Origin: Thiohalobacter thiocyanaticus
Lineage (GTDB): Bacteria > Pseudomonadota > Gammaproteobacteria > Thiohalobacterales > Thiohalobacteraceae
NCBI RefSeq assembly: GCF_002356355.1
Contig: NZ_AP018052.1
Span: forward strand, 1,922,001-1,986,000
Reading direction: 5' to 3'
Length of the DNA stretch: 64,000 nucleotides
Shown: piece after piece, positions 21,998 through 64,000 of the stretch
How positions within the stretch are numbered: the stretch's first letter is position 1
How the letters are laid out: each line of letters begins with the position of its first letter
The notes under the pieces: generated by a model
Databases searched by the model: none
What the model was told of the DNA's origin: nothing
The model's input: the letters and a program-made list of their open reading frames with translations, nothing else
Position numbers and translations under genes: made by a program

Positions 21998-23242
<1,245 letters not shown>

Positions 23243-43220: not shown

Positions 43221-44345
43221 TTACAGCAAGTCGAGAAAGCGCTTGATTACACTCAACGGCATGTAGGCATGCGGCGACACCCGGATGCCGCCGGCGCGCT
43301 GAGCGCACTGCACCCCTGCCGTGCGCAGGCGCTGGAACAGATCGTCCACCGGCTCCTGCAACGGCCGGAAGGTGACAATGCCGGCCAGGCGGTCCGGCTG
43401 GGTGCGGGTGATCAGGGCATAGCGATCGGGCTGCGCCTGCAGCGCCGAGACGATTTGCTGCGAGCGCTGCAGCACCGCCGCGCCGACCCGATCCATGCCG
43501 ATTTCCTCCAGCAGCGACAGGCTGGCCTCCAGCGCATAGATACCCAGCATGTTCGGACTGCCGCATTCGAACCGGCGGGCATCGGAGGCCACCTGCCAGT
43601 CGGGATTGTCGAAGTTGCCGGGCTCGGCCAGCATGTGCCAGCCGTACTCCAGCGGCTGCAATGTCTGCAGCAGTTCGCGACGGCAGTAGAACAGCGCCAG
43701 CCCCTCCGGCGCCAGCATCCACTTGTGCCCGTCGGCGACCACGAAATCCGCCCGCGCCGCGCGCACATCGAAGGGCAGGGCGCCGATCTGCTGAATGGCA
43801 TCGACGCAGAACAGCACCTCGGCCTCCTCGCAGTGGCGGCCGATCCGCCGCAGGTCCAGCCGCAGCCCGGTGCCGTACTGCACCGCGCTGATGGCCACCA
43901 GGCGGGTGCGGTCGTCGACCTGATCGATCACCGCCTGTTCCGGGTCTTCGCCCGAGACATCGGCATAGCGGACCACGACGCCGCGCGGCCGGAGCGACTC
44001 CCAGACCACCCGGTTGGAGGGGAACTCCTGGTTGCTGATGACCACATTGTCGCCGGCCTGCCAGTCCAGCCCGGCAGCGATGAAGGACAGGCCCTCGGAG
44101 GTATTTTTCAGCAACGCGATCTCATCGCTCCCACGTGCCCCGATCAGCCGCTGCAGCCGTTCGCGCAGCCGCTGCTCGGTCTGCTGCCAATGCAGGTAGT
44201 GGCGCGAACCCTCATGCAGGTTCTCATCCGCAAAGGCCTGCACGGCCGCCGCCGTTCGCCGCGGCCAGGGCGAGACCGCGGCATGATTGAGATAGATCAG
44301 ATCGGGCGCGAGTTCAAACTCGGCCTCCAGTTCGGTAATTTGCAT
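43221..44345 (-). CDS. Class V aminotransferase / cysteine desulfurase-like protein
   Basis: 374 aa from the ATG at 44345, preceded by AGGA. PLP features: IYLNHAAVSPWP at the N-terminus, the Schiff-base lysine in FVVADGHKWMLAPEGLALFY, and NQEFPSNRVVWESL. It belongs to the group that includes selenocysteine lyases and cysteine desulfurases, but no catalytic cysteine loop of the SufS/CsdA type is obvious. It is divergent from the Sec-peroxiredoxin and the selenocysteine genes, so a role in selenium or sulfur delivery is possible but unproven. Confidence 0.8.
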   Translation of the reverse strand: MQITELEAEFELAPDLIYLNHAAVSPWPRRTAAAVQAFADENLHEGSRHYLHWQQTEQRLRERLQRLIGARGSDEIALLKNTSEGLSFIAAGLDWQAGDNVVISNQEFPSNRVVWESLRPRGVVVRYADVSGEDPEQAVIDQVDDRTRLVAISAVQYGTGLRLDLRRIGRHCEEAEVLFCVDAIQQIGALPFDVRAARADFVVADGHKWMLAPEGLALFYCRRELLQTLQPLEYGWHMLAEPGNFDNPDWQVASDARRFECGSPNMLGIYALEASLSLLEEIGMDRVGAAVLQRSQQIVSALQAQPDRYALITRTQPDRLAGIVTFRPLQEPVDDLFQRLRTAGVQCAQRAGGIRVSPHAYMPLSVIKRFLDLL

Positions 44346-44450
44346 GCAATTCTTCCTGATCAGGGCCGATTCGGCTCCAGCTTGCCATGGCGCCGGCCGG
44401 ACTGGCAATTGGCTGTCACCAAAGGGTTGGCCGATCCCAGCCGGTGTCGC

Positions 44451-44479
44451 TTGACACAAGCGGGGGCATGAACAATGAT
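44451..44479 (+). promoter_or_regulatory. Promoter of the Sec-peroxiredoxin gene
   Basis: TTGACA (44451-44456), a 17-bp spacer and AATGAT (44474-44479). The start site near 44486 gives a leader of about 30 nt to the ATG at 44516. Confidence 0.7.
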
Positions 44480-44515
44480 CACAGTGTCCCTGGCGCCAAG
44501 CGAGAGGAAATGCCA

Positions 44516-45235
44516 ATGGCTGAAGAGGAATCTGTAAGCTGCGCCCGGGTGACGAGCTCGGTTGCCGGCGAATCGCCGCCGGAATCGTCAGCGTCGCCCG
44601 AATCCACCATCAGAGAAGAGGTACCCAGGATGAGTGTACGTGTCGGACAGAAAGCCCCCGATTTCACCGCACCCGCCTATCACAAGGGCAGCTTCACCAA
44701 TGTGACGCTGTCGGAGTTTGCCGGCAAGTGGGTGATGCTCTGTTTCTACCCCGGTGATTTCACCTTCGTCTGAGCTACTGAAGTGTCGGCGGTCGCCGCG
44801 AATTATCAGAAGCTCCAGGATCTGGGGGTTGAAGTCATCTCGGTCAGCGTGGACAGCCACTTCGTCCACAAGATCTGGAATGATGAGGAACTGAGCAAGA
44901 TGGCCGATGGCGGTGTGCCATTCCACATGGTCGCCGATCAAGCCGGCAATGTCGGCCGGGCCTATGGATGCTGGGACGAGAGCCAGGGAGTCGAACTCCG
45001 CGGTCGTTTCATCATCGATCCCGACGGGGTCATCCAGGCCATGGAGGTGCTCACCCCGCCGGTCGGGCGCAAGCTCGCCGAAACGATACGCCAGATCCAG
45101 GCCTATCAGCACGTGCGCGCCACCCAGGGCAAGGAGGCCTGCCCCGCAGGCTGGGAACCGGGCAAACCCACTCTCAAGCCCGGGCCGGATCTGGTCGGCA
45201 AGGTGTGGGAGGTCTGGAACCCCTCCATGGAATAA
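44516..45235 (+). CDS. Selenocysteine-containing peroxiredoxin (AhpC/Prx1 type), UGA read as Sec86
   Basis: 239 aa if the in-frame UGA at 44771-44773 is read as selenocysteine. The UGA falls exactly at the peroxidatic cysteine: [15 protein letters not shown], where AhpC proteins have FYPxDFTFVCPTE. The frame continues without error through [19 protein letters not shown], the dimer-interface region and the resolving Cys209 ([11 protein letters not shown]). A hairpin with a GGUC loop starts just after the UGA. AGAGGA lies upstream of the ATG at 44516; an ATG at 44630 would give a shorter protein lacking the N-terminal tail with Cys9. It reduces peroxides in the cytoplasm. selA, selB, tRNA-Sec and selD follow downstream. 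Confidence 0.93.
44778..44809 (+). promoter_or_regulatory. Bacterial SECIS-like hairpin
   Basis: CUGA (44778-44781) pairs with UCAG (44806-44809), and CGGC (44787-44790) with GCCG (44795-44798), leaving a GGUC apical loop and a probable bulged U at 44786. E. coli fdhF also has a GGUC loop with a bulged U. The loop begins 17 nt after the UGA here and 18 nt in fdhF. It would bind SelB. Confidence 0.75.
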
Positions 45236-45361
45236 GTCCGGCGCTGCTGCAGGCAACCGGCACCTCGAGACCCCGTCCCCAGTGGCGGTGTTTTTCTTTG
45301 GGTGACTGCAGCATGAGTTGTGCTATTCTGCGGGTGAGGTTTCTGTCCAGTTGGATGAAAC

Positions 45362-46762
45362 ATGCATCAACTCTCCAAACTGCCGTCCGTCAGCCGCATC
45401 CTCTCTGACACGCAAATCGCTGCGCTCGTGGATAGCCACGGGCAGACCGTCGTTACCCGGATCGTGCGTGACACCCTGTCCGCTGCCCGCGCCGCCGCCC
45501 GCACCGGCGAGCCTGTTCCCGATGTAACGAGCCTGGTCTCCAGGGTCGCCGACACCGCCCAGACGTTGGCCATGCCGCGCCTGCGTCCGGTCTACAACCT
45601 CACCGGCACGGTACTGCATACCAATCTCGGTCGAGCCCTGCTGCCGGAAGAGGCCGTCACCGCCCTGGTCACGGCCGCCCGCAGCCCCTGTGCGCTGGAG
45701 TACGACATCGAGGACGGCGGCCGCGGCGACCGCGATGACGTGGTCGCTGAATTGTTGTGCGAACTTACCGGCGCCGAGGCCGCGACCGTGGTCAACAACA
45801 ATGCCGCCGCCGTGTTCCTGCTGCTCAATGCCCTGGTGCGGAAGAAGAAGAAAAAGGTCATCGTCTCGCGCGGAGAACTGATCGAGATCGGTGGCGCCTT
45901 CCGGATACCCGACATCATGCAGCGCGCCGGCGCAGACCTGGTCGAGGTCGGCACGACCAACCGCACCCATCTGACGGACTTCCGCGCCGCGATCACCAGA
46001 CGCACGGCCATGCTGATGAAGATTCACACCAGCAACTACGCGATCCAGGGCTTCACCCATGCCGTTCCCGAACGTGAGTTGGCCGAACTGGCGCATGCGC
46101 ATGAACTGCCCTTTATCGTCGACCTCGGCTCCGGCACCCTGACCGGGCTCGAGCGCTGGGGACTGCCGCACGAGCCCACGCCGGGCGAAAGCATTGCCGC
46201 CGGCGCCGATCTGGTGACCTTTTCCGGGGATAAGCTGCTCGGCGGTCCGCAGGCCGGATTGCTGGTCGGCCGCCGGGATCTGATCAAGCGGATCAAACGC
46301 AACCCGCTCAAGCGGGCACTACGTGTCGGCAAACTCACCCTGGCCGCGCTCGAGGCCGTGCTGCGGCTGTACCGTGATCCCGACCGCCTGGCGGAACGCC
46401 TGACCGCGCTGCAGCAGCTGACCCGCCCCGAAGCCGAGATCCGTGCCGCGACACAGCGCCTGCTGCCGGATGTGCAACGCGCCCTGAATGCACTGCCGGT
46501 AACGGTGGAAATCGTGCCGCTGCAGTCCCAGATCGGCTCCGGCTCGCTGCCCGTGGACCGATTGCCCTCGGCCGGTCTCGCCGTCAGGCCGCAGGGAAGG
46601 AAAAGCGGCGTGCTGCATCGCATCGAGACCGGTCTGCGCGAATTGCCGCGCCCGGTGATCGGCCGCATCGAAGATGGGGCGCTGCTGCTGGATCTGCGCT
46701 GCCTGCAGCGTCAGGAAGAAGACGGATTCCGGGCCAATCTCGCCCGTTTGTCATGCTCATAG
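45362..46762 (+). CDS. selA: L-seryl-tRNA(Sec) selenium transferase
   Basis: 466 aa, standard length. The N-terminal SelA domain is LPSVSRILSDTQIAALVDSHG; the PLP lysine is Lys291 in FSGDKLLGGPQAGLLVGR, close to Lys295 of E. coli SelA. Other signatures are YNLTGTVLHTNLGRALLP and HTSNYAIQGFTH. It converts Ser-tRNA(Sec) to Sec-tRNA(Sec) with selenophosphate. The gap from the peroxiredoxin is 126 bp; the selB ATG overlaps its 3' end. Confidence 0.97.
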   Translation: MHQLSKLPSVSRILSDTQIAALVDSHGQTVVTRIVRDTLSAARAAARTGEPVPDVTSLVSRVADTAQTLAMPRLRPVYNLTGTVLHTNLGRALLPEEAVTALVTAARSPCALEYDIEDGGRGDRDDVVAELLCELTGAEAATVVNNNAAAVFLLLNALVRKKKKKVIVSRGELIEIGGAFRIPDIMQRAGADLVEVGTTNRTHLTDFRAAITRRTAMLMKIHTSNYAIQGFTHAVPERELAELAHAHELPFIVDLGSGTLTGLERWGLPHEPTPGESIAAGADLVTFSGDKLLGGPQAGLLVGRRDLIKRIKRNPLKRALRVGKLTLAALEAVLRLYRDPDRLAERLTALQQLTRPEAEIRAATQRLLPDVQRALNALPVTVEIVPLQSQIGSGSLPVDRLPSAGLAVRPQGRKSGVLHRIETGLRELPRPVIGRIEDGALLLDLRCLQRQEEDGFRANLARLSCS

Positions 46763-48681
46763 GCACCGCCGGCCATATCGATCACGGCAAGACCACGCTG
46801 CTCAAGGCACTCACCGGCGTGGATGCCGACCGACTGCTGCAGGAAAAGGCCCGCGGCATCACCCTGGATCTCGGCTACGCCTACACACCGCTGACCGATG
46901 GCTCGGTACTCGGTTTCGTTGACGTACCCGGGCACGAAAAGCTGATCCGCAACATGCTTGCCGGCACGACCGCGATCGACTTCGCCCTGCTGGTGATCGC
47001 CGCCGACGACGGACCGATGCCGCAGACCCGCGAACACCTGGAACTGCTGGAACTGCTGGATATCGGGCAGGGAGCCGTCGCCCTGACCAAGACGGATACC
47101 GTCACAGCAGAGCGCCTTGAGCAGGTACGACAGGAAGTGGCCGATCTGCTGACCGGCACGGTGCTGGCGGCGAGTCCGGTTTTTCCCGTATCCGGGCGGA
47201 CGGGGGAGGGCGTGGCGGCGCTGCGCAGCCACCTCGAGGCCACAACCGCTGCAATCAGCCGACCGCCGGCCGCAGGGCGTTTCCGTCTCGCCATCGACCG
47301 CTGTTTCGCGCTCTCCGGCGTCGGCACGATCGTGACCGGTACCGCCCATGCCGGCGCCGTTGCCGTGGGCGACAGGCTCAGCCTGGCGCCGGCGGGAGTC
47401 ACGGCCCGGGTACGCGGCCTGCACGTGCAGGATCGGCCGGCCGAACGCGGGCAGGCGGGGGACCGCTGCGCGCTGGCGCTCAAGGGCAACTTCGACCGCC
47501 GCGACATCCGCCGCGGGATGTGGCTGGTCGATCCCGCGCTCGCCGTTTCACTGTCCCGCTTTCAGGCCGAACTGCGCGTGCCTGCCGGCCAGGCGGCGCT
47601 CAGACACATGCAAACCGTGCATGTGCATCTGGGCACCGACGATATCATCGGTCGGGTGGCATTGCTCGACGGCAAACGCGCCGAGCCGGGGCACACCGCG
47701 CTGGCAGAGATTCTGCTGGAGCGGGAAACCCTGTGTCTGCGCGGCGACCGCATCATCCTGCGCGATGCGGGCGCCCGGCGCACCGTCGCGGGGGGCAGGG
47801 TGCTCGACATTCATCCCCCTGCACGCCACAAGCGCAGCCCCGAACGGCTGCGCCTGCTGGACAGCCTGCGCAATGACGACCCGGCCGCCGGTCTGGAACT
47901 GATGGCAGACCAGTCCGCTACCGGCGTCGATCTGCACCGGTTCACTCTGAACTGGAATCTCGATGAGGCGCAGGCCAGAACGCTGTGGCAGCGGGCGGGC
48001 CTGCGCGTGGTCGAGGCGGGCGAATCCGCGATCGGCCTTTCGCAGGCAGCCTGGGACGGGCTCCGGCAGCGGCTGCTGGAGACCCTGGCCCGGGAACACG
48101 AACGCTCACCGGACATGATCGGTGTCGAGGCCGGACGGCTGCGCCGCATGACGGCCGTCAATCTGCAGCGCCCTGTTTTCGACGTCCTGGTGGACGAACT
48201 GCTGACCTGCGGAGCGATTGCGCAGACGCGGGCCTGGCTGCACCTCCCTGAGCATCACGTCAGCGTGAGCGACGACGACCGTGCACTGTTCAGCGAATTG
48301 AAGCCGCTGCTGCAAGCCGCCCCTTACAATCCCCCGCGCGTGCGCGACATCCACAAGGCGACGGGTATCCCCGAACCCGCCGTGCGGCAGCTGTTCAAGC
48401 GCCTCGCCCGTGCCGGTGAACTCTATCCCGTCGGCCACGATCACTATTTCACCGCCGGCGCCGTGGCGGAACTGGCCGCCATCGTCGCGCGACTCAACAC
48501 AGAGCAGGGCGCCGCTCGCGCCGCCCCCTTCCGCGACATTCTCTTCCCCGAGGGCGGGGGAGGCCGTAAGGTGGCCATCCGGATTCTCGAGTTCTTCGAC
48601 CGCATCGGTTACACTCGGCGCGAGCGCGATGACCATGTGCTGCGCGACAGCACGGCTGCGCTGCAATGGAGCGTGCGGTGA
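46753..48681 (+). CDS. selB: Selenocysteine-specific elongation factor SelB
   Basis: 642 aa. The GTPase domain has G1 GTAGHIDHGKTTLLKAL, G3 DVPGHEKLIRNML and G4 LTKTDTV, followed by EF-Tu-like domains II-III and four C-terminal winged-helix domains (about 380-642; for example YNPPRVRDIHKATGIPEPAVRQLFKRL) that bind the SECIS hairpin. It delivers Sec-tRNA to UGA codons. It overlaps selA by ten bases and ends 16 bp before tRNA-Sec. Confidence 0.97.
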   Translation: MLIGTAGHIDHGKTTLLKALTGVDADRLLQEKARGITLDLGYAYTPLTDGSVLGFVDVPGHEKLIRNMLAGTTAIDFALLVIAADDGPMPQTREHLELLELLDIGQGAVALTKTDTVTAERLEQVRQEVADLLTGTVLAASPVFPVSGRTGEGVAALRSHLEATTAAISRPPAAGRFRLAIDRCFALSGVGTIVTGTAHAGAVAVGDRLSLAPAGVTARVRGLHVQDRPAERGQAGDRCALALKGNFDRRDIRRGMWLVDPALAVSLSRFQAELRVPAGQAALRHMQTVHVHLGTDDIIGRVALLDGKRAEPGHTALAEILLERETLCLRGDRIILRDAGARRTVAGGRVLDIHPPARHKRSPERLRLLDSLRNDDPAAGLELMADQSATGVDLHRFTLNWNLDEAQARTLWQRAGLRVVEAGESAIGLSQAAWDGLRQRLLETLAREHERSPDMIGVEAGRLRRMTAVNLQRPVFDVLVDELLTCGAIAQTRAWLHLPEHHVSVSDDDRALFSELKPLLQAAPYNPPRVRDIHKATGIPEPAVRQLFKRLARAGELYPVGHDHYFTAGAVAELAAIVARLNTEQGAARAAPFRDILFPEGGGGRKVAIRILEFFDRIGYTRRERDDHVLRDSTAALQWSVR

Positions 48682-48697
48682 CACGCATCAGATCCCT

Positions 48698-48793
48698 GGA
48701 AGAGATCGTTCCCCGGTGGGGCGCCCGGTCTTCAAAACCGGGAGGGGCTGTCAAGCGGTCCCTGGTAGGTTCGACTCCTGCTCTCTTCCGCCA
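48698..48793 (+). tRNA. selC: tRNA-Sec (anticodon UCA)
   Basis: 96 nt including encoded CCA. The 8-bp acceptor stem GGAAGAGA / TCTCTTCC is the length unique to selenocysteine tRNAs, with G73. The anticodon arm CCGGT-CTTCAAA-ACCGG gives TCA at 48732-48734. The D arm has CCCC/GGGG pairing, the variable arm is long (GGGGCTGTCAAGCGGTCCC region), and the T arm is GTAGG-TTCGACT-CCTGC. It lies directly between selB and selD. Confidence 0.97.
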
Positions 48794-48831
48794 ATTCCCC
48801 GCCTGCCGATACATCTATCAGGACTCCGCCA

Positions 48832-48900
48832 GTGCCCACGTGCGGCGGCTGTTGCTGATGCGGTTTCGGACTGAATGACACCCTGGTCAAGGAGCTGATC
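48832..48900 (+). other. Cys-rich mini-ORF with in-frame UGA leading into selD
   Basis: A GTG at 48832, eight bases after an AGGA, begins VPTCGGCC, then UGA (48856-48858), then [14 protein letters not shown] running without a further stop into the selD ATG at 48901 in the same frame. This may be a Sec-containing N-terminal extension of SelD or a regulatory leader peptide that senses UGA decoding. A CCU-GGUCA-AGG mini-hairpin follows, but 26 nt after the UGA, further than in the peroxiredoxin. It could also be coincidence: selD has its own strong ribosome site. Confidence 0.3.
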
Positions 48901-49968
48901 ATGTTCATGGATAACCCCGCAGAAAAGACCCGACCCACCATCCGTCTGACCGAATACAGCCACGGCGCCGGCTGCGGCTGCAAGATCGCCCCCAAACTGC
49001 TGGAGGAAATCCTCGCCAGCGATGCCACTGTCCCTGTCGATCCGCGGTTGCTGGTGGGCAATGACTCCAGGGATGATGCCGCTGTGTACGACCTCGGCAA
49101 CGGCAGCTCCGTGATTTCCACCACGGACTTCTTCATGCCTATCGTGGACGACCCCTTCGAATTCGGCCAGATCGCGGCCACCAATGCCATCAGCGACATC
49201 TACGCCATGGGCGGCCGCCCCCTGATGGCCATCGCCATCTTCGGCTGGCCGATCGCCAAACTCGGGCCGGAGGTCGCCCGCGCCGTGATCGACGGTGGTC
49301 GCAGGGCCTGTGAACTGGCCGGCATCACTCTCGCAGGCGGGCATTCCATCGATGCGCCCGAGCCCATCTTCGGGCTGGCGGTCACTGGCAGTGTCGAAAA
49401 CGGGTTTCTCACCCGCAACGATACGGCGGAGCCCGGCTGCCGGCTCTATCTGACCAAGCCTCTGGGCATCGGCATCCTGACCACGGCGCAGAAGCAAAAG
49501 AAGCTACAGCCGGAACACATCCGCCTGGCACCCGACACCATGTGCCAGCTCAATGATATCGGCGCCGAACTCGGCCGGCTCGACGGCGTCAGGGCCATGA
49601 CCGATGTCACCGGCTTCGGCCTGCTGGGACACCTGCTGGAGATGTGCGAGGGCAGCGGTGTCTCGGCCCGCATCGATTACGCCGCCGTGCCCAAACTGCC
49701 CGAAGTCGAGCACTACCTGGAACTGGGCTGTTCGCCGGGTGGCGCACAACGCAACTTCGACAGCTACGGCCACAAGGTCGGCGTCCTGTCCGAGAACAGA
49801 CGCAGGATCCTGTGTGATCCCCAGACCTCCGGCGGTCTGCTGGTGGCCGTTGCGCCGCAGGCGGAACCGGAATTTACTGCGCTGGCCCGTTCATTCGGTC
49901 TCAACGATCTCCGTCCCATCGGCAGCCTGCTGGAAAGGGAGCACGGCCCGGTTGTCGAAGTGGAATGA
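48901..49968 (+). CDS. selD: Selenide, water dikinase (selenophosphate synthetase)
   Basis: 355 aa. The active-site loop [13 protein letters not shown] has Cys25, Cys27 and Lys28, equal to Cys17, Cys19 and Lys20 of E. coli SelD, so this enzyme is the Cys form. Further motifs: [50 protein letters not shown] and [13 protein letters not shown]. It makes selenophosphate for SelA. AAGGAG lies 6 bp before the ATG. Confidence 0.97.
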
Positions 49969-50012
49969 CCCCCCGGCTATCGACTACTGATGCTCGTTTC
50001 GGCCTGTTCATA

Positions 50013-50040
50013 ACTTCGCATAATGTATATTATGTTAAAT
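50013..50040 (+). other. Chromosome dimer resolution site dif
   Basis: The 24 bp CGCATAA-TGTATA-TTATGTTAAAT are identical to the core of E. coli dif: XerC arm (50013-50023, ACTTCGCATAA), central region TGTATA (50024-50029) and XerD arm TTATGTTAAAT (50030-50040). Only the outer part of the XerC arm differs. It marks the site where XerCD resolves chromosome dimers and implies that the terminus region lies here. Confidence 0.93.
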
Positions 50041-50080
50041 AACAAGCACGGCTCACTCAATCCAGCTGTTTGTGTTGTTA

Positions 50081-50141
50081 CAACCTAACCTTGGCAAACC
50101 TACAAGCTAAATCTGGCAACTGTTGCAACCTAAATCGGCAA
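50081..50141. repeat. Three imperfect direct repeats beside dif
   Basis: CAACCTAACCTTGGCAA (50081), CAAGCTAAATCTGGCAA (50103) and CAACCTAAATCGGCAA (50126) are spaced 22-23 bp apart, about two helical turns. They begin 41 bp after dif. Such arrays occur as transposase-binding sites at the ends of IS21-, Tn7- or Mu-like elements, or as binding sites for a chromosomal protein. No associated gene is seen. Confidence 0.6.
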
Positions 50142-50244
50142 CGCGGCCTAATGGAAACGCAAGATCAGGCAATATTGCTCCGTGTTTTGAGCCACTCTCG
50201 TTGCGCAAACTTCCGATGCCGACCAGAAGCGGTCTCTGATTACC

Positions 50245-50650
50245 CGTCATTGCGAGGAGCGAAGCGACGTGGCAATCTCCTTCAGCCACAAATTTCCTCG
50301 AAAAGATCCCGCCATACCGGGTTTCCATCCTCTATCAACGCAACTTTCGCTTTTCTCGGCCTGCCCTTCAGCTGCTTCTCTCTTTCAATGGCCAGGTCCA
50401 TTGTTTCAAAAAGCTCAAACCAGATCAGTCGCGTTACATTGTATTTTGCAGTAAATCCTCTGACTGCTTTGCTTTTATGTTCCCAGATGCGCTTTGGAAG
50501 ATTGCTGGTGACGCCAATATACAGCGTGCCATTCGGCCGGTTGCATAGGATATAAACAGCAGGTTGCTTTTCCATTTCGTCATCCTTGACGATGATGGTT
50601 CGGCTGTATCTTTGGGAGATTGCCACGTCGCTGCGCTCCTCGCAATGACG
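50245..50650. mobile_element. 406-bp element with 35-bp inverted ends carrying a GIY-YIG gene
   Basis: The left end (50245-50279) and right end (50616-50650) are inverted copies with one mismatch in 35; both start CGTCATTGCGAGGAGCG and finish GGCAATCTC. The GIY-YIG gene fills the interior and its stop codon is 2 bp inside the left end. The same ends bound gene-less elements at 2763-2864, 32420-32567 and, minimally, 10499-10528. No target duplication is obvious. Confidence 0.7.
50282..50575 (-). CDS. Single-domain GIY-YIG nuclease-like protein
   Basis: 97 aa. The GIY-YIG motif is VYILC...LYIGVTS (Tyr8, Tyr19-Gly21), followed by the catalytic Arg29 in NLPKRIWEH, and a C-terminal glutamate region. 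This is the UPF0213/YhbQ-like class of stand-alone domains, whose role is not established. The ATG at 50575 gives MEKQPAVYIL; a longer frame upstream runs into the inverted repeat and is unlikely. Because it is enclosed by repeat ends shared with empty elements, it may be the nuclease that moves them. Confidence 0.88.
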   Translation of the reverse strand: MEKQPAVYILCNRPNGTLYIGVTSNLPKRIWEHKSKAVRGFTAKYNVTRLIWFELFETMDLAIEREKQLKGRPRKAKVALIEDGNPVWRDLFEEICG

Positions 50651-50689
50651 TGGAACTTTTAACGTCCGCTGTGTGCCCGTTAGCACACT

Positions 50690-51358
50690 TTATTCTGTCT
50701 GTTTAATCACTTTTGGAGAATCCTCACGGGTGTAATAACCAACCGGATAGCCTTCCCAATCCCCCGCCTGCGCCGTTGCTAATACAGTCTTCAATTCCTC
50801 GACCCCTGTTGACGGGTCCAACCACTGCCCCCATGTCGACGGCGACAATATCGCCGGCATCCGCGCATGCACCTCGCCGACAACGGCATTGGCCTCGACC
50901 GTGACTATCGCACAGGAGTCGACTCCCTCCCCTGCTTCGTCATGTGGCTCCCAGCGTCCCCACAGGCCCGCCATGAAGAAGGGCTCACCGTCTTTGCGGT
51001 GGAAGTAATACTGCGGCTTGCGCTTCTCCCCGGTGTCTCTGGGTTCATAGAAGCCGTCCGCCGCAATCAGGCAGCGGAAGTGGCGGAATGGAAACTGCCA
51101 CAGCCGGCTCGTCGCCAGGGTCTCCGCCTTGGCGTTGATGGTGGAGTATTTTGTCCTGGGTTCTTTCTCGAAGGGCGGGATGTAGGGCCAGTGCAGGGAG
51201 GTCAGCTCACGCTCACCAGTCGGATCCAGGTGACAGGCCAGGACGGACTGGCCCGGCAGGATATTGTAGCGAGGCGGGAGCGAGCCGACCTGGCAACGGG
51301 CCCGGGCAAGGGCGGCAAAGCGCTCAGGGGGCGTGATCCTGGCGAAGCGTCCACACAT
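50690..51358 (-). CDS. SRAP/HMCES-type abasic-site DNA-protein crosslinking protein (YedK family)
   Basis: 222 aa. The catalytic Cys2 is exposed after Met removal (MCGRFARITPPE). Other conserved residues are in PRYNILPGQSVLAC, TINAKAETLA, the ADGFYEP glutamate and VHARMPAIL histidine. It covalently traps abasic sites in single-stranded DNA. A LexA box lies about 90 bp upstream, consistent with the name SOS-response-associated peptidase. A likely -10 (TATGAT on the minus strand) lies between the box and the start. Confidence 0.94.
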   Translation of the reverse strand: MCGRFARITPPERFAALARARCQVGSLPPRYNILPGQSVLACHLDPTGERELTSLHWPYIPPFEKEPRTKYSTINAKAETLATSRLWQFPFRHFRCLIAADGFYEPRDTGEKRKPQYYFHRKDGEPFFMAGLWGRWEPHDEAGEGVDSCAIVTVEANAVVGEVHARMPAILSPSTWGQWLDPSTGVEELKTVLATAQAGDWEGYPVGYYTREDSPKVIKQTE

Positions 51359-51445
51359 ACCGTGTCATAACCATTTGATTCTTATATGTGTCCATCATAC
51401 CCAACCCGCGCCCCGCTGCCCAGGGATTTCATGCCCCCTGAATAA

Positions 51446-51461
51446 CTGTATATTCATACAG
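51446..51461 (-). promoter_or_regulatory. LexA (SOS) box
   Basis: CTGTATATTCATACAG fits the LexA consensus CTG-N10-CAG with the preferred TATATxxATA interior. It is upstream of the SRAP gene on the minus strand, and no plus-strand gene starts within 1.8 kb, so SRAP is the likely target. Confidence 0.85.
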
Positions 51462-51536
51462 TGTGTATCGCCATTCTATATTTTCACGAGGGCCGGGCGG
51501 CAGACAGGCGCCCCTGTGTATTAACAAAAGGATTGT

Positions 51537-51779
51537 TCATTCGTTTTCCGTGGGCCTGGAAACCCCGGTGAACTTGAAAATGAGCTTGCTCAGGTAGCGT
51601 TCGGTCGGACGGAACACATACGCTGCGGCGGCGGGCATTATCGCGAAGAAGAACCGCTCTTCAGTATCCTGCGCGACGAACAGCACCAGCAGCACGACAA
51701 TGACGAGCGTAATCAGTGCATATATCACCCAGGCCATCCTGAGATGGGATTGATATCTGTCGTTTTGCATGTTTTTCAC
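51537..51779 (-). CDS. Small two-span membrane protein
   Basis: 80 aa from a GTG overlapping the macro-gene stop (GTGA); an ATG three codons later with AGGTG upstream is an alternative. Hydrophobic segments are WVIYALITLVIVVLLVLFVA and FFFAIMPAAAAYVF. The C-terminus is basic then polar. Family not recognised. Overlap with the macro-domain gene suggests a functional pair. Confidence 0.65.
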   Translation of the reverse strand: MKNMQNDRYQSHLRMAWVIYALITLVIVVLLVLFVAQDTEERFFFAIMPAAAAYVFRPTERYLSKLIFKFTGVSRPTENE

Positions 51780-52318
51780 CTGGTTCCCTTCAACTCATCC
51801 AGCACCTGATTGTATACCGCCAGATCCGAGGGCTGAAACAGCACACATCGAATCTGCTTCAGCTGTGTCAGTTTCTGTGCTGCAGCGGTCATGACGCCCA
51901 GCGCGATCCTGGTCGCCGCTTCCAGCGGGTAGCCGAACACACCGGTGGAGATGGCCGGAAAGGCAATCGATTCGATCCCGTTCTGCTCCGCCAGCTGCAG
52001 TGCCCGGCGATAGCAGCCGGCAAGCAGTTCATCGGCGGGCTCATCCACACCGTAGACCGGTCCCAGGCAGTGGATCACATACTTGTTCGGGAGGTTGTGC
52101 GCACTGGTGATCACGGCCTGACCGGGTTTGATGGGCGCCAGCGACCGGCACTCCTCGTCCAGGCCCGGGCCGGCGGCGCGGTGGATGGCGCCGGCCACGC
52201 CGCCGCCGGGGCGCAGCTGGGCGTTGGCGGCATTGACGACGGCGTCCATGTCGGCCTGGCTGGCGATGTCGCCAAGGGTGCACTCGATGGTGACGTTGTT
52301 GATGGTGCGGTGGGTCAT
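51776..52318 (-). CDS. Macro-domain ADP-ribose hydrolase (YmdB-like)
   Basis: 180 aa, one macro domain. The ADP-ribose pocket is visible: GDIASQADMDAVVNAANAQL, PGGGVAGAIHRAAG, and AFPAISTGVFGYPLEAATRIAL. Enzymes of this type remove ADP-ribose or O-acetyl-ADP-ribose adducts. It is transcribed toward the SOS-regulated SRAP gene but with a separate small gene between. Confidence 0.93.
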   Translation of the reverse strand: MTHRTINNVTIECTLGDIASQADMDAVVNAANAQLRPGGGVAGAIHRAAGPGLDEECRSLAPIKPGQAVITSAHNLPNKYVIHCLGPVYGVDEPADELLAGCYRRALQLAEQNGIESIAFPAISTGVFGYPLEAATRIALGVMTAAAQKLTQLKQIRCVLFQPSDLAVYNQVLDELKGTR

Positions 52319-52367
52319 GGTTTCCTCCTTATGTCCCCCCTCCTTGATCCTCCCCCATCAAGGGAGG

Positions 52368-53111
52368 CTAGCGCTTCTGGCGGGCCTGCATCAGGGCGGC
52401 GTATTCCTCGGGAGCGATGAGCTGGCGGATATCGACGAAGCTGCCGCTGTCGAATGTCTTCAGTCTGCCCACGACCTCCAGCACCCGTTCCGCCGCCGCG
52501 CGCGGGCCGGGCATGGTATCGGTGCCGCGGGCGGCGCGGATCCGACCCAGGGCCGGATATTCCCCGGGATCGGGCTCGACACAGAGATAGTCCATCATGG
52601 CGGTGTCGATCAGGCCGGGGGCGATGGCCGCGAGATGGGTATCCGGAAACTCATGGGAATACAGCCGCAGCAGCATGTTGAGTGCGGCCTTGGAGATGGC
52701 GTAGCCGTTCCAGCCCTTGTTGCCCAGCACGGCCGCCCCCGAGGAAATGCCCACGATCTGGTCGACTGCAATACCGAAATCCAGCAGCCAGTCCAGGATG
52801 ATCTTGTTGGACCAGACATTGATGTCCATGCTGCGGCCCAGTTCCTCCAGCGAGGTGTCGTGCATGGGTTTGATCCGGCCCAGGATGCCGGCATTGAGGA
52901 TGACCAGGTCCAGGCGCTCAACGCCGGCCAGCAGCTGTTCCAGGGCCGCCGGCACCGTCGCGAAATCGCCCAGATCGCAGCGGACGTCATGCACCCCCTC
53001 CAGGTCACAGCCGCGGCGGCTGCAGCCGTAGACCTCCCAGCCCCGGGCCAGGGCCGCTGCGCTGAAACCACGGCCGAGGCCGCTGCTGTTGCCGGTGATG
53101 AACAACCTCAT
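52368..53111 (-). CDS. SDR-family oxidoreductase
   Basis: 247 aa from the ATG at 53111. The cofactor site is MRLFITGNSSGLGRGFSAAALA (TGxxxGxG), with DLVILNAGILG, a catalytic Tyr-Lys in NGYAISKAALNMLLRLY and a C-terminal unknown tail. NAD or NADP use and the substrate cannot be told. Alternative starts upstream lack a ribosome site. Confidence 0.88.
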   Translation of the reverse strand: MRLFITGNSSGLGRGFSAAALARGWEVYGCSRRGCDLEGVHDVRCDLGDFATVPAALEQLLAGVERLDLVILNAGILGRIKPMHDTSLEELGRSMDINVWSNKIILDWLLDFGIAVDQIVGISSGAAVLGNKGWNGYAISKAALNMLLRLYSHEFPDTHLAAIAPGLIDTAMMDYLCVEPDPGEYPALGRIRAARGTDTMPGPRAAAERVLEVVGRLKTFDSGSFVDIRQLIAPEEYAALMQARQKR

Positions 53112-53277
53112 ACAGACTCCTGTTGTGCATGGTGCATACGATGATTCTGTCCTTGTGACAGTGGCGCTCGCAAGCACTCTTTGTTGCAATAATAAGAACA
53201 ATATTTTCATAAACAGGTAATTAATTCATATTTTCACAATAGTTATACTCTCTGTCAGATGAACCGGGAGAAGCGAC

Positions 53278-53835
53278 ATGCTCCGTAACACCTCAACAGG
53301 CTATGGCTGGATCAGCATCCTGCTGCACTGGCTGGTGGCGCTCGTCATCATCGGACTGTTCGCGCTGGGATTGTGGATGACGGATCTGACCTATTACGAT
53401 CCCTGGTACCGCGAGGCGCCGGCCATTCACAAATCCGTCGGGATACTGCTGTTCCTGGCAATTGTGCTGCGCCTGGCCTGGCGCTGGTGCAACCCGCGGC
53501 CTGTCCCGCTGTCGAATCACAAGCCCTGGGAGCGGCAGCTGGCGCACTGGACACATGTGCTGCTCTATGCCCTGCCCCTGCTGGTGATGGTCAGCGGCTA
53601 CCTGATCTCCACCGCCGAGGGCCGGCCGGTGGAGGTGTTCGGCTGGTTCAGCGTTCCGGCCACATTCAGCGGTTACGAGCAGCAGGAGGACATCGCCGGC
53701 GAGATCCACGAGATTCTGGCCTTCATCCTGATCGGCCTGGCCTCTGTGCATGCCCTGGCTGCGCTCAAGCACCATTACATCGACCGCGACCGGACCCTGC
53801 GGCGCATGCTGCGGAGCCGGAATGACATGACCTGA
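53278..53835 (+). CDS. yceJ: Cytochrome b561 (YceJ-like)
   Basis: 185 aa, four transmembrane helices. Haem-ligand histidines appear in ISILLHWLVALVIIG, APAIHKSVGILLFL, and toward the C-terminus in GEIHEILAFILIGLASVHALAALKHHY. It transfers electrons across the inner membrane. It is followed by yceI, as in E. coli. TATACT upstream (about 53244) is a possible -10. Confidence 0.92.
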   Translation: MLRNTSTGYGWISILLHWLVALVIIGLFALGLWMTDLTYYDPWYREAPAIHKSVGILLFLAIVLRLAWRWCNPRPVPLSNHKPWERQLAHWTHVLLYALPLLVMVSGYLISTAEGRPVEVFGWFSVPATFSGYEQQEDIAGEIHEILAFILIGLASVHALAALKHHYIDRDRTLRRMLRSRNDMT

Positions 53836-53856
53836 AAGGTTGAAAACCTGCAATTC

Positions 53857-53883
53857 ACCATCCCGGCGCAGGCCGGAATGACG
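53857..53883. repeat. Half-site of the CGTCATTCCCGCG repeat family
   Basis: CCATCCCGGCGCAGGCCGGAATGACG-like sequence between cytochrome b561 and yceI; partial copy with a small internal palindrome CCGGCGCAGGCCGG. Confidence 0.55.
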
Positions 53884-53921
53884 ATGATCAAACCCTTCTC
53901 ACCAACACAAGGAGATACACC

Positions 53922-54503
53922 ATGAAAACCCGGACCCTGACAGCCGCCCTCCTCGCCAGTGTTCTCAGCCTGCCCGGCCTGGCCGCGGCGGCGGACTATG
54001 TCATCGACACCAAGGATTCGCATGCCTTCATCCAGTTCCGCATCCCGCACCTGGGTTACAGCATGCTGCTCGGCCGCTTCAACGAGTTCGAGGGCCGCTT
54101 CAGCTATGACGAGGACAAGCCCGAGGCCTCCAGTGTCGAGGTGGTGATCCAGACCGCCAGCATCGACTCCAACCATGCCGAGCGCGACAAGCACCTGCGC
54201 GGCGAGGACTTCCTGGAGGTCGGGAAATACCCCGAGGCCCGCTTCGTCAGCACCGGCTTCACCGAGCATGGCGACGATACCGCCACGCTGGAGGGCGAAC
54301 TGACCCTGCACGGCGTCACCCGGCCCATCAGCATCGAGGTCGAGCACATGGGGCACGGCCCGGATCCCTGGGGCGGCTACCGCCGCGGCTTCACCGGCAC
54401 CACCACCCTGAAACTGGCCGATTTCAACATCGACTACGACCTGGGTCCGGCCTCGCGCGAGGTGGAGCTGTTCCTGTCGGTGGAGGGGATTCGCCAGGAC
54501 TGA
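53922..54503 (+). CDS. yceI: YceI-family periplasmic protein
   Basis: 193 aa with signal peptide (LTAALLASVLSLPGLAAAADY). Lipocalin-like YceI beta-barrel: DYVIDTKDSHAFIQFRIPHLG, VVIQTASIDSNHAERDKHLRGEDFL and LTLHGVTRPISIEVEHMG. These proteins bind isoprenoid quinones or other amphiphiles. AGGAG lies upstream, and the partner cytochrome b561 precedes it. A strong terminator follows. Confidence 0.95.
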   Translation: MKTRTLTAALLASVLSLPGLAAAADYVIDTKDSHAFIQFRIPHLGYSMLLGRFNEFEGRFSYDEDKPEASSVEVVIQTASIDSNHAERDKHLRGEDFLEVGKYPEARFVSTGFTEHGDDTATLEGELTLHGVTRPISIEVEHMGHGPDPWGGYRRGFTGTTTLKLADFNIDYDLGPASREVELFLSVEGIRQD

Positions 54504-54580
54504 ATCGAGGCGAACGCCCCTCACCCGGCCCTTTTATGCCCTATGGGGGCTCCCCCTCCGGGGAGAGGGGATTCATTTAC

Positions 54581-54611
54581 GGGCCGGCAGGACTGCCGGC
54601 CCGATTTTTTT
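54581..54611 (+). terminator. Rho-independent terminator after yceI
   Basis: A perfect 10-bp stem, GGGCCGGCAG / CTGCCGGCCC, is followed by GATTTTTTT. It ends the b561-yceI unit and lies just before the rimB start region. Confidence 0.92.
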
Positions 54612-54626
54612 GTCTGCCGTATCAGG

Positions 54627-54632
54627 CATAAT
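54627..54632 (+). promoter_or_regulatory. Possible -10 element just before rimB
   Basis: CATAAT lies six bases before the rimB ATG (54639) with no convincing -35 and no ribosome site. It is another case of a start codon placed at the expected transcription start. Confidence 0.35.
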
Positions 54633-54638
54633 GGCCGC

Positions 54639-55112
54639 ATGACAGGCACCAAGACCACGGTCGGCTGGCGCGAGTGGGTGGCCCTGCCCGAGTTGGGCGT
54701 TCCCTATCTCAAGGCCAAGATCGACACCGGCGCGCGCACCTCGGCCCTGCATACCTTCCTGATCGAGCCCTTTGACGAGGACGGTGTGCGCAAGGTCCGC
54801 ATCGGCCTGCACCCGCATCAGAACCGCAGCGACATCGAGCATTTCACCGTAGCCGAGGTCATCGACGAACGCTGGGTGAGTGACTCCGGCGGGCACCGGG
54901 AAAAACGCTATGTCATTCGCACCGAGTTGCGGCTGGGCGCGACGACCTGGCCGATTGAGGTGACCCTGACCAACCGTGATAACATGCGTTTTCGCATGCT
55001 GCTGGGACGAACCGCCATGGCCGGACGGCTTGTGGTGGATCCACAGTCTTCCTACCTGGCGGGTGAAAAACCCTCCGCCGGCAAACACCGACACGCACAG
55101 GATTCCGGATGA
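54639..55112 (+). CDS. rimB: RimB-like aspartic protease of the RimK system (ATP-dependent zinc protease family)
   Basis: 157 aa. The catalytic DTGA motif is at residues 29-32 ([16 protein letters not shown]), typical of the retropepsin-like RimB/DUF785 family. In Pseudomonas RimB accompanies RimK and modulates or removes glutamate tails of ribosomal protein S6. The ATG at 54639 directly follows a -10-like hexamer. It overlaps rimK by four bases (ATGA). Confidence 0.85.
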
Positions 55113-56014
55113 ACATCGCTATACTCTCCCGCCGCGCCTCGCTCTACTCCACCCGGCGCCTGGTCGAGGCCGCCAAGGAGCGCGGCCACGAAGTGCGGGT
55201 GATCGACACCCTGCGCTGCTATATGAACATCGCCTCGCACAAGCCGGAGGTGCATTACAAGGGCGAGAACCTGAGCGGCTTCGACGCCGTCATTCCGCGC
55301 ATCGGCGCCTCCATTACCTTCTACGGCACCGCCGTGCTGCGTCAGTTCGAGATGATGGGCACCTTCCCGGTCAACGAGTCCGTCGCCATCACCCGCGCCC
55401 GTGACAAGCTGCGCTCGCTGCAGCTGCTCTCGCGCCGCGGCATCGGTCTGCCGATCACCGGCTTCGCCCATTCGCCGGATGACGTCGAAGACCTGATCAA
55501 GATGGTCGGCGGCGCCCCGCTGGTAATCAAACTGCTGGAAGGCACCCAGGGCATCGGCGTGGTGCTGGCCGAGACCCGTCAGGCCGCGGAGAGCGTGATC
55601 GAGGCCTTCATGGGGCTGCGCACCAACATCATGGTGCAGGAATACATCGGCGAAGCCAGAGGCTCCGACATCCGCTGCTTCGTCATCGGCGACAAGGTGG
55701 TCGCGGCCATGAAACGTCAGGCCAAGGAGGGCGAATTCCGCTCCAACCTGCATCGGGGCGGCTCCGCCACCCTGATCAAGATCACCCCCGAGGAGCGTTC
55801 CACCGCGGTGCGCGCGGCCAGGATCATGGGGCTGAACGTGGCCGGTGTGGACATCCTGCGTTCCAATCACGGCCCGGTGGTCATGGAGGTCAACTCCTCG
55901 CCCGGCCTGGAGGGCATCGAAAGCGCCACCGGCAAGGACATCGCCGGGATGATCATCCAGTTCATCGAGAAGAACGCCAAGTTCGGCAAGACGGGCACCA
56001 AGGGCAAGGGCTGA
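55109..56014 (+). CDS. rimK: RimK ATP-grasp glutamate ligase
   Basis: 301 aa. ATP-grasp motifs: [63 protein letters not shown] and [14 protein letters not shown]. RimK adds glutamates to the C-terminus of ribosomal protein S6 and makes poly-glutamate. It is translationally coupled to rimB and followed after 14 bp by a deacylase-like gene. Confidence 0.95.
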
Positions 56015-56028
56015 GGACAGGGCCTGGC

Positions 56029-57105
56029 ATGCAAGCCGATCCACTCCACATCAACGGCCGGAGCATTGCGCCCGGCACCCGCACCACGCTGGAGCTGCCC
56101 ATCACCCGGCTCTACACGCACACGCCCATCACCATGCCGGTGCAGATCGTGCGCGGCAACAAGGCCGGGCCGCACCTGTTCGTCAGTGCCGCCATCCACG
56201 GCGACGAACTCAACGGTGTGGAGATCATCCGCCGGGTACTGCGCTCGGCGGCGCTGAAGCGCCTGCGCGGCACCCTGATCGCCGTGCCCATCGTCAATGT
56301 GCAGGGTTTTCTGCAGCACTCGCGCGAACTGCCCGATCAACGCGATCTCAACCGGGTCTTCCCCGGCTCCGAAAAGGGCTCGCTGGCGGCACGCCTGGCA
56401 CACACCTTCATGGAGGAGATCGTCGGCAATTCCACCCACGGCATCGACCTGCACACGGGTGCGCGCCACCGCTTCAACCTGCCGCACATCCGCGCCAACA
56501 TGCACCTGCCTGATACCGAGGCCATGGCCAAGGCCTTCGGCACGCCGGTGGTGCTCAACGCCGACATCCGCGACGGTTCGCTGCGTCAGGCCGCCACCGA
56601 GGCCGAGATCCCCACCCTGCTCTACGAGGCCGGCGAGGCACTGCGCTTCGACGAGGTATCCATTCGCGCCGGTGTGCGCGGTGTGATCAATGTCATGCAT
56701 TACCTGGGCATGCTGCCGCCGTCGAGTCGGAAAAAGAAGCGTCCCCGGGCCGAACCGGTGATCGCCGAGTCCAGCGCCTGGGTGCGCGCCCCCGGCAGCG
56801 GCATCCTGCGCCCGCTGATCGGCCTGGGTGCGCGGGTGCGCAAGGGCGACGTGCTCGGCATCGTCTCGGACCCCTTCGGCAGCCAGGAACGCGAAATCAA
56901 GTCCACCTACGCCGGGATCGTGATCGGCCGGACCCATCTGCCCATGGCCTATGAGGGCGAAGCGCTGTTTCACATTGCCCGCTTCGAGACGGTCGAGGAC
57001 GTCGCCGCCCAGGTCGAAGCCTTCCAGGCCACTTACCAGATGGAAGAGTCTCATCCCGGCACGGCGACGTTCAATGACGAACCCGAGCCTTCATCCAACG
57101 AGTGA
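56029..57105 (+). CDS. Succinylglutamate desuccinylase/aspartoacylase-family metallohydrolase
   Basis: 358 aa. The zinc ligands are His57 and Glu60 (AAIHGDELNGVEIIRR) and His142 (GIDLHTGARHRFNLPHI), as in AstE/ASPA carboxypeptidase-like enzymes. A C-terminal lipoyl-like beta domain (APGSGILRPLIGLGARVRKGDVLGIV) is also present. Homologues accompany rimK widely. Its substrate may be an N-acyl or poly-glutamate product of RimK; this is inference. Confidence 0.87.
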   Translation: MQADPLHINGRSIAPGTRTTLELPITRLYTHTPITMPVQIVRGNKAGPHLFVSAAIHGDELNGVEIIRRVLRSAALKRLRGTLIAVPIVNVQGFLQHSRELPDQRDLNRVFPGSEKGSLAARLAHTFMEEIVGNSTHGIDLHTGARHRFNLPHIRANMHLPDTEAMAKAFGTPVVLNADIRDGSLRQAATEAEIPTLLYEAGEALRFDEVSIRAGVRGVINVMHYLGMLPPSSRKKKRPRAEPVIAESSAWVRAPGSGILRPLIGLGARVRKGDVLGIVSDPFGSQEREIKSTYAGIVIGRTHLPMAYEGEALFHIARFETVEDVAAQVEAFQATYQMEESHPGTATFNDEPEPSSNE

Positions 57106-57114
57106 CCTGTCGCC

Positions 57115-57846
57115 ATGGCCGTGCGCAAGGTGAAACCGATCCGAAGCTTCAATTTCAAACCCGGCCGCGTACTTGCCGGGAAATATGAAGTGGTCAGTTC
57201 GCTCGGCTCCGGCTGGGAAGGCGAGGTGTATCTGGTGGTGGAGAAGGACACCGGCATCGAACGCGCGGCCAAGTTCTTCTACCCGCAGCGCAACCCGAAC
57301 AACCGCAGCCTGCTCTTCTATGCCAAGAAACTGCACAAGCTGCGCAACTGCCCGATCCTGATCCAGTACCATACCCAGGACAGCGTCACCCTTCAGCGTC
57401 AGCCGGTGAAGTTCATCGTCTCGGATTATGTCGAGGGCGAGCTGTTGTCCAACTTCATCGAGGAACAGCCAGGCCAGCGGCTGGATTATTTTCAGGGCCT
57501 GCATCTTCTCTATACCCTGGCCCAGGGCATCGAGAGCATTCATCACATGGGCGAGTATCACGGCGACCTGCATACCGATAACATCATCGTGCAGCGCGCG
57601 GGACTCGCATTCGAAGTCAAGCTGGTGGACATGTACCACTGGGGACCGCCGACGGCACAGAACATCCGCCAGGACGTATTCGATCTTGTCCGTATTCTCT
57701 ATGATGTCCTCGGCGGTCAGCGTCACTACGCACGCCAGCCGCAGCCGGTAAAATCGGTCATCAACGGCCTGAAACGCACTTTGATATTGAAAAAATTCAA
57801 AACTGCGGGACAATTGAGAGAATATCTTGAAAATCTGTCCTGGTAA
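57115..57846 (+). CDS. Hanks-type protein kinase-like protein
   Basis: 243 aa. Glycine loop LGSGWEGEVYLV, Lys53 (RAAKFFYPQ), catalytic loop YHGDLHTDNIIV with Asp151 and Asn156, and Asp172 in LVDMYHWG in place of DFG. The N-lobe is short, and no APE motif is clear, so activity is probable but not certain. There is no membrane segment. It lies between the deacylase-like gene and a PP2C phosphatase, the usual antagonistic partner. Confidence 0.85.
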   Translation: MAVRKVKPIRSFNFKPGRVLAGKYEVVSSLGSGWEGEVYLVVEKDTGIERAAKFFYPQRNPNNRSLLFYAKKLHKLRNCPILIQYHTQDSVTLQRQPVKFIVSDYVEGELLSNFIEEQPGQRLDYFQGLHLLYTLAQGIESIHHMGEYHGDLHTDNIIVQRAGLAFEVKLVDMYHWGPPTAQNIRQDVFDLVRILYDVLGGQRHYARQPQPVKSVINGLKRTLILKKFKTAGQLREYLENLSW

Positions 57847-57860
57847 CGACAACCAATAAC

Positions 57861-58739
57861 ATGAAAAAAAGGATTGAGCTGGATCAGCCGCTGTTGATTG
57901 AACAGCAGAACGAGGAACGTTTCTTTCACATCACTGCGAACTCGCTGGAAGTCATCGCCTACAGCGCGGTATCACCGGAGAAGGAGACGCCGAACGAAGA
58001 CTGTCTGGCAATCATCCCGCTGGATGGCAGAGAGTGTATCCTCGCTATTGCCGACGGCGCCGGCGGCACCCGCCAGGGCGGTGACGCCTCCCGGCTCGCG
58101 GTCGCCGCTCTCGAGCAGGTGCTGCGCGAGAAATCACCGGAACAGGACGTCCGCGCCTGCGTGCTCAATGCCTACGAGCTGGCCAATACCCGCATCATGG
58201 AGCTCGGTGTCGGCGCCAGCACCACCCTGACCGTGATCGAATATGCCGACGGCCGCATCCGTCCCTATCATGCCGGTGATACCATGATCATGCATGTCGG
58301 GCTGCGCGGCCGCATCAAGTACCAGACCGTCCCCCACTCCCCCACCGGCTACGCCGTCGAGGCCGGGTTGCTGGAAGAGGATGCGGCACTGCATCACGAG
58401 GATCGTCACCTGGTGACCAATATCCTCGGCCATGAGGATCTGCGGGTGGAAATCGGCTCCTTTGTCGACATGGCCCGTCACGATACCATCGTCATCGGCA
58501 GCGACGGGCTCTATGACAACCTGTACAAGGAGGAGATCATCGAGCGCATCCGCAAGGGCCCGCTGAACCGCGCCGCGCGCCGGCTGGCCGCCGACGTGCG
58601 CGAACGCATGCTCACCGAGAGGCGCCGCCAGCCCAGCAAGGCGGATGACTTGAGTTTCATGCTGATCCGGCGGAAACCAGCAACACCTCAACGCAGAGGC
58701 GCAAAGGCGCAGAGTACGCAAGGCAAAGATCATGGTTAA
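57861..58739 (+). CDS. PP2C-family serine/threonine phosphatase
   Basis: 292 aa. Metal-binding motifs: PNEDCLAIIP (Glu46/Asp47), AIADGAGGTRQGGDAS (Asp65), IVIGSDGLYDNLYKEE and KADDLSFML. It probably reverses the partner kinase. The final 18 or so residues (TPQRRGAKAQSTQGKDHG) are encoded by a dispersed repeat (58689-58729) inserted at the 3' end, so the native C-terminus may have been replaced. Confidence 0.9.
   Translation: MKKRIELDQPLLIEQQNEERFFHITANSLEVIAYSAVSPEKETPNEDCLAIIPLDGRECILAIADGAGGTRQGGDASRLAVAALEQVLREKSPEQDVRACVLNAYELANTRIMELGVGASTTLTVIEYADGRIRPYHAGDTMIMHVGLRGRIKYQTVPHSPTGYAVEAGLLEEDAALHHEDRHLVTNILGHEDLRVEIGSFVDMARHDTIVIGSDGLYDNLYKEEIIERIRKGPLNRAARRLAADVRERMLTERRRQPSKADDLSFMLIRRKPATPQRRGAKAQSTQGKDHG
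58689..58729. repeat. CAACGCAGAGGCGCAAAGG repeat within the PP2C 3' end
   Basis: Same family as the outer arms at 29484-29680. It is read in frame as the C-terminal tail of the phosphatase. Confidence 0.8.
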
Positions 58740-58743
58740 ACAG

Positions 58744-58814
58744 CGTCATTCCCGCGTAGGCGGGAATCCATAACCCGCTGTGGCGTCTGGATCCCCGCCT
58801 ACGCGGGGATGACG
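58744..58814. repeat. Palindromic repeat, CGTCATTCCC...GGGGATGACG family
   Basis: Full copy with arms CGTCATTCCCGCGTAGGCGG and CCGCCTACGCGGGGATGACG, five bases after the phosphatase stop codon. Confidence 0.88.
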
Positions 58815-58881
58815 CTACTCTTAGTGTTACAGGCAATATTTCGCAGCTTTGTTTCCGTCACGTCACTTGTGATGCACATAA

Positions 58882-58908
58882 ATAAAAAAGCCGCCCGGAG
58901 GCGGCTTT
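58882..58908 (-). terminator. Rho-independent terminator of sat
   Basis: On the minus strand GCCGCC, a TCCG loop and GGCGGC are followed by TTTTTTATT, 23 bp after the sat stop codon. Confidence 0.88.
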
Positions 58909-58930
58909 CGTCTTTCAGACCGGACAGCCC

Positions 58931-60121: not shown

Positions 60122-60364
60122 TGTCTTCTCTCCTGGTGCTTGCTGCTCCCGCATGCACGGGCAATCAATTTGAAATCAGAGGCTTATGAATTCCCTGCGG
60201 GGGTTTTATCAATTCCGCCAATCATAACATGGATAGGTGCGGCTGCAGGCGGAAGCACGGGGAAATCCCCCGCTTTTGTGCCATCAAATTTTTTCTGTCT
60301 GTATAAATGCTTTGTATGTGCCCTGGCGACGGCCGGACGACACCACAGGTAGCTGAACGGAGGG

Positions 60365-61222: not shown

Positions 61223-61347
61223 GGGCGTGCTTTATGCCACAGCGCCGTGACGAGGTAAAGTTTTATCCTGCCCTGCGGGGTTCAGGGAAGTGAATCCTGC
61301 GGCGGCTGATGCGACAATACCCCATCGATGGACGCGGGTGCTGAACG

Positions 61348-62601: not shown

Positions 62602-62610
62602 TACCAGCGA

Positions 62611-62691
62611 GTAGGATGGGTGGAGCGCAGCGCAACCCATCGTTTCCCACCTGCAGATGGGTTGCGGCGCAAGCGCCTCCACCCATCCTAC
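62611..62691. repeat. Palindromic repeat, GTAGGATGGGTGGAGCGCAGC family
   Basis: Arms GTAGGATGGGTGGAG and CTCCACCCATCCTAC are exactly complementary, with an inner GCAACCCATCG / GATGGGTTGCG pair. It separates converging genes, and the second copy is at 3934-4021. Confidence 0.9.
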
Positions 62692-62697
62692 ACGCTG

Positions 62698-64000
<1,303 letters not shown>

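Follow-up and report, generated by a model that had tools for sequence, protein, structure and literature searches.

Positions 50013–50040 of the analyzed window, a stretch of 64,000 nucleotides from the chromosome of Thiohalobacter thiocyanaticus, almost certainly represent the chromosomal dimer-resolution site (dif) of the ordinary Xer/dif kind, at which XerC and XerD would recombine. We base this identification on the sequence of the site, on its single copy in the genome, on its location at the polarity switch of the GGGNAGGG motif and near the switch of the GC skew, and on the presence of genes for XerC, XerD and an FtsK with the gamma domain in the same genome. Taken alone, the dif site marks the replication terminus of this genome and nothing more. 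The association of a GIY-YIG nuclease gene with CGTC-tagged repeats, which is seen directly beside dif, provides a specific and testable enzyme candidate for these repeats and may matter more than the dif site.

The dif site and the replication terminus

The site, ACTTCGCATAATGTATATTATGTTAAAT, is located on the forward strand and consists of an XerC-side arm (ACTTCGCATAA, 50013–50023), a 6-bp centre (TGTATA, 50024–50029) and an XerD-side arm (TTATGTTAAAT, 50030–50040), the arms being named by analogy with E. coli. The dif site of E. coli is GGTGCGCATAATGTATATTATGTTAAAT. The two sites are identical at 25 of 28 bp, with all three mismatches among the four outermost bases of the XerC arm, and the match of 24 out of 24 bp from CGCATAA to GTTAAAT, reported by the first-pass annotation, was confirmed. 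When the genome (a single contig of 3,233,441 bp) was scanned with the 24-bp core, exactly one match with at most three mismatches was found, at 1,972,017–1,972,040; a second, better dif elsewhere on the chromosome, considered in that annotation as the sign of an attachment site, is absent from the whole genome at this threshold.

GC skew and motif polarity were calculated for the window and 40 other stretches, 858 kb in all, the terminus part of this sample (1.76–2.18 Mb) being contiguous except for 2 kb. Of the 20-kb blocks sampled, 20 of 22 show a positive skew on the replichore leading from dnaA to dif and 20 of 21 a negative skew on the return from dif to dnaA, and the sign also changes near dnaA; this agrees with the earlier claim that the window spans the replication terminus. 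The sign switch near dif, proposed as a check, was thus observed, but its position is shifted: the cumulative skew reaches its maximum within 1.76–2.18 Mb at 1,939,057, 33 kb to the left of dif, and dif itself is 150 kb (4.6% of the genome) away from the exact antipode of dnaA (~1.822 Mb, derived from the best DnaA match at 205,048).

The polarity of the GGGNAGGG motif switches closer to the site. To the left of dif the window contains 12 rightward motifs on the forward strand (5778, 12737, 22088, 22826, 30353, 37766, 38085, 38090, 43773, 47065, 47203 and 47793; span 5778–47800) and two leftward ones on the reverse strand (21264 and 26357), and to the right of dif one rightward motif on the forward strand (60524) and five leftward motifs on the reverse strand (50925, 53570, 54682, 61180 and 63342; span 50925–63349). 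This full count substantiates the polarity switch that had been noticed by eye: all sites named in that scan, including the three exceptions, exist within a few bases of the stated positions, although those at 22088, 22826, 30353, 37766, 47065, 47203 and 50925 had been missed. Of the 108 motifs in the 200 kb on either side of dif, 82 are aimed at it (p = 3e-8). For the reversed-motif control GGGANGGG the figure is 33 of 57 over the same range (p = 0.14) and 24 of 36 over 100 kb (p = 0.03). Beyond 200 kb the bias of GGGNAGGG is weaker (56 of 86). Since the control is weaker and the bias fades with distance, the polarity is mostly specific for GGGNAGGG and centred on dif; the cumulative strand balance of the motif within 1.76–2.18 Mb peaks at 1,969,793, 2.2 kb to the left of the site.

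A search for xerC, xerD and ftsK had also been recommended, and all three genes are present: XerC is encoded at 313,826 (TIGR02224, 367 bits, cut-off 335), XerD at 2,590,563 (TIGR02225, 383 bits, cut-off 330), and FtsK with the gamma domain at 2,072,635 (PF09397, 100.5 bits). According to the E. coli paradigm, FtsK oriented by KOPS-type motifs would pump DNA toward dif at division, its gamma domain would activate XerD, and XerC and XerD would then resolve a chromosome dimer into monomers by recombination between its two dif copies. A further tyrosine recombinase of the genome (2,686,620–2,687,219; TIGR02249, 445 bits) resembles integron integrases and is extended at its N-terminus.

Conservation and surroundings of dif

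A single dif with at most three mismatches was identified in 35 of 56 genomes, T. thiocyanaticus itself and its sister species included; no match at this threshold was found in the other 21, where the assemblies may be drafts or the site may have diverged. Over most of the window the gene order agrees with that of the same-genus genome G001, and the main break of synteny is a 7.5-kb block around dif (44356–51898). In T. thiocyanaticus this block comprises selA, selB, tRNA-Sec and selD, followed by dif, the GIY-YIG element and SRAP, with one or more Macro-domain genes on the SRAP side of dif, while G001 instead has a citrate-type transporter, a sulfate permease and a two-component system. The dif site of G001 is found at the corresponding place, between the same outer blocks, and the outer-block gene at 43269–44471 is located near dif in other members of the family and of the class, too.

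These data bear on a rival reading, by which the site would mark the attachment of an integrated element exploiting the Xer system, such as an IMEX-type phage, a genetic island or an Xer plasmid, or be a remnant of one. We regard this as very improbable: although the 7.5-kb block is the only one in the window that differs from the same-genus relative, and a small mobile element is situated 200 bp from dif, the second dif-like copy that would bound such an element is absent from the genome at up to three mismatches, the relative has its dif at the corresponding place, none of the neighbours (the selenocysteine genes on one side, the SRAP and Macro-domain genes on the other) is phage-like, and both the skew and the GGGNAGGG polarity switch at dif. 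We consider it just as improbable that the dif-like sequence is a product of chance or decay and has no function. The four outermost bases of the XerC arm are indeed unlike those of E. coli, but the same ACTT variant is present in dif of four relatives (L065, L071, L078 and L080), 100 shuffles of the window yielded no dif match with at most three mismatches, and a perfect core is combined with a conserved position at the polarity switch. The minor points against the interpretation of the site as dif are the three mismatches in the XerC arm, the offsets of 33 kb from the skew turn and 150 kb from the antipode, and the 21 of 56 relatives lacking a match.

GIY-YIG genes bracketed by CGTC-tagged repeats

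The element located about 200 bp to the right of dif, at 50220–50677, is one of three copies in the chromosome and comprises a GIY-YIG nuclease gene with a CGTC-tagged palindrome on each side, both facing outward. The palindrome CGTCATTGCGAGGAGCGAAGCGACGTGGCAATCTCC at 50245–50280 and its inverted counterpart at 50615–50650 flank the gene, which is on the reverse strand (likely ATG at 50575, stop at 50282; PF01541, E = 7e-16). The other copies are found near 2227394–2227790 and 3134993–3135390; the three copies occupy unrelated genomic places, show 95–100% identity at the protein level and share approximately 25 bp outside each palindrome and little beyond. No clean empty site for the dif-side element was found in the sister species, in which the whole surrounding block differs. 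A PDB sequence search with the GIY-YIG protein gave weak matches: an archaeal filament protein scored best (E = 9e-5) but was taken as uninformative, and UPF0213 GIY-YIG proteins were matched at E = 0.02–0.04. The single-sequence fold of the protein is poor (pLDDT 54).

The 29-bp repeat has 49 copies in the genome at up to three mismatches (reversed control, 0), and nearly all of the 30 copies examined form outward-facing pairs, typically about 73 bp apart. CGTC-tagged repeats, which occur mostly as head-to-head dimers, were defined by Di Nocera et al. 2013 (PMC3733652), who described them in several phyla and apparently without a dedicated transposase. The repeats of the element have the CGTC tag and a short palindromic stem starting with AT, and they are multicopy and mostly arranged as outward dimers; none of the four families of that paper was assigned, since the stem of the window's own repeat type is imperfect in an RNA-energy fold. 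Another CGTC repeat dimer (58744–58814) is shared with G001, where it occupies the same place but is inverted; this would fit cutting of a cruciform and resealing.

The genome has a fourth GIY-YIG gene (625,212–625,496; locus L125; 54% identity), and the CGTC repeat that flanks it on both sides is a different one, CGTCATCCCGGCGCAGGCCGGGATCCAG, close to a repeat type with 89 exact copies in the same genome. The T. thiocyanaticus genome therefore seems to hold two nuclease/repeat pairs. Tandem GTGAGGC-type repeats are located directly upstream of this fourth gene.

The score for bracketing in other genomes was that of the best inverted repeat formed by the two 300-bp flanks of the gene. The scored loci were selected as the best matches to the GIY-YIG protein of the window in class, phylum and plasmid records, not at random. 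The threshold of 15 was set once the class loci had been inspected for the first time, and was then applied unchanged to the phylum loci, which were scored later. Scores of at least 15 were obtained for 34 of 44 class and plasmid loci (the four own copies included) and for 15 of 27 phylum loci; without the copies of T. thiocyanaticus itself these are 45 of 67 loci, nearly all of them in Pseudomonadota. Such scores were reached by 0.3% of 3000 random 290-bp segments from the T. thiocyanaticus genome and its relatives and by none of 1500 random segments away from the gene in the phylum loci. Bracketed genes are present in Aeromonas, Neisseria, Azospirillum, Shinella, Rhizobium, Neorhizobium, Novosphingobium and Sphingobium; a matched repeat pair was not found at one Photobacterium, one Rhizobium tumorigenes and one Sphingomonas locus. 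The support for bracketing outside Pseudomonadota is thin and comes from Planktothrix (a cyanobacterium) and Spirosoma (Bacteroidota), where TGTC-tagged hairpins occur on both sides of the gene with inverted-repeat scores of 12 and 11, respectively.

The gene and the repeat also co-occur at the level of genomes. Homologs of the GIY-YIG gene (E ≤ 1e-15) were found in 73 of 369 class genomes and the exact pattern CGTCATTCCNGCGNANGCNGGAATCCA, which represents one CGTC repeat type, in 83 of 369; both are present in 44 genomes, and 39 of the 296 genomes without the gene contain the pattern (odds ratio 10, p = 1.4e-15, relatedness of the genomes being ignored). This calculation uses the tallies as printed and assumes the same 369 genomes for the gene and the pattern, with which the genome handles agree; the pattern table also includes handles above G368.

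In the unrooted tree of the GIY-YIG proteins two groups are separated (support 92/93). The first group has ATTGC-type repeats and includes the window element, L137, L139 and L141, as well as L145, which is cut by a contig end; the second group has repeats of ATTCC, ATCCC or other types. As the tree shows one deep split, it weakly supports a matched specificity of nuclease lineage and repeat type.

GIY-YIG nuclease genes are associated with CGTC-tagged repeats, and we found no published link between the two in open-access papers. The nuclease is a candidate for the enzyme that the CGTC repeats were said to lack. We give an even chance to the proposal that it mobilizes the repeats bracketing its gene, in which case repeat and enzyme would form a second system parallel to that of GTAG-REPs and RAYT, with nuclease lineages matched to repeat types. 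As a rival explanation, the nuclease gene may home into already existing repeats without moving them; the present data fit both.

Comparison with known systems

The dif site of T. thiocyanaticus shares with that of E. coli the complete 24-bp core, the 11-6-11 layout and the occurrence as one copy near the terminus, and the two systems further have in common the polarity switch of KOPS-type motifs and the presence of genes for XerC, XerD and FtsK with the gamma domain. They differ in the outer XerC arm, which is ACTT in T. thiocyanaticus and GGTG in E. coli, and in the bias of GGGNAGGG, which here is strong around the terminus and less marked elsewhere in the sampled DNA.

Like the CGTC-tagged REPs described previously (PMC3733652), the repeats next to dif have the CGTC tag and are arranged as dimers that face outward. 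Neither of the two Y1-transposase matches of the genome lies close to a CGTC repeat of the types searched for. The dif-side element resembles the REPtron (RAYT with GTAG-REPs) in its layout, a gene bracketed by repeats, but encodes no tyrosine transposase: where the REPtron has an IS200/IS605-like enzyme of this kind, the element beside dif has a GIY-YIG nuclease (PF01541) instead.
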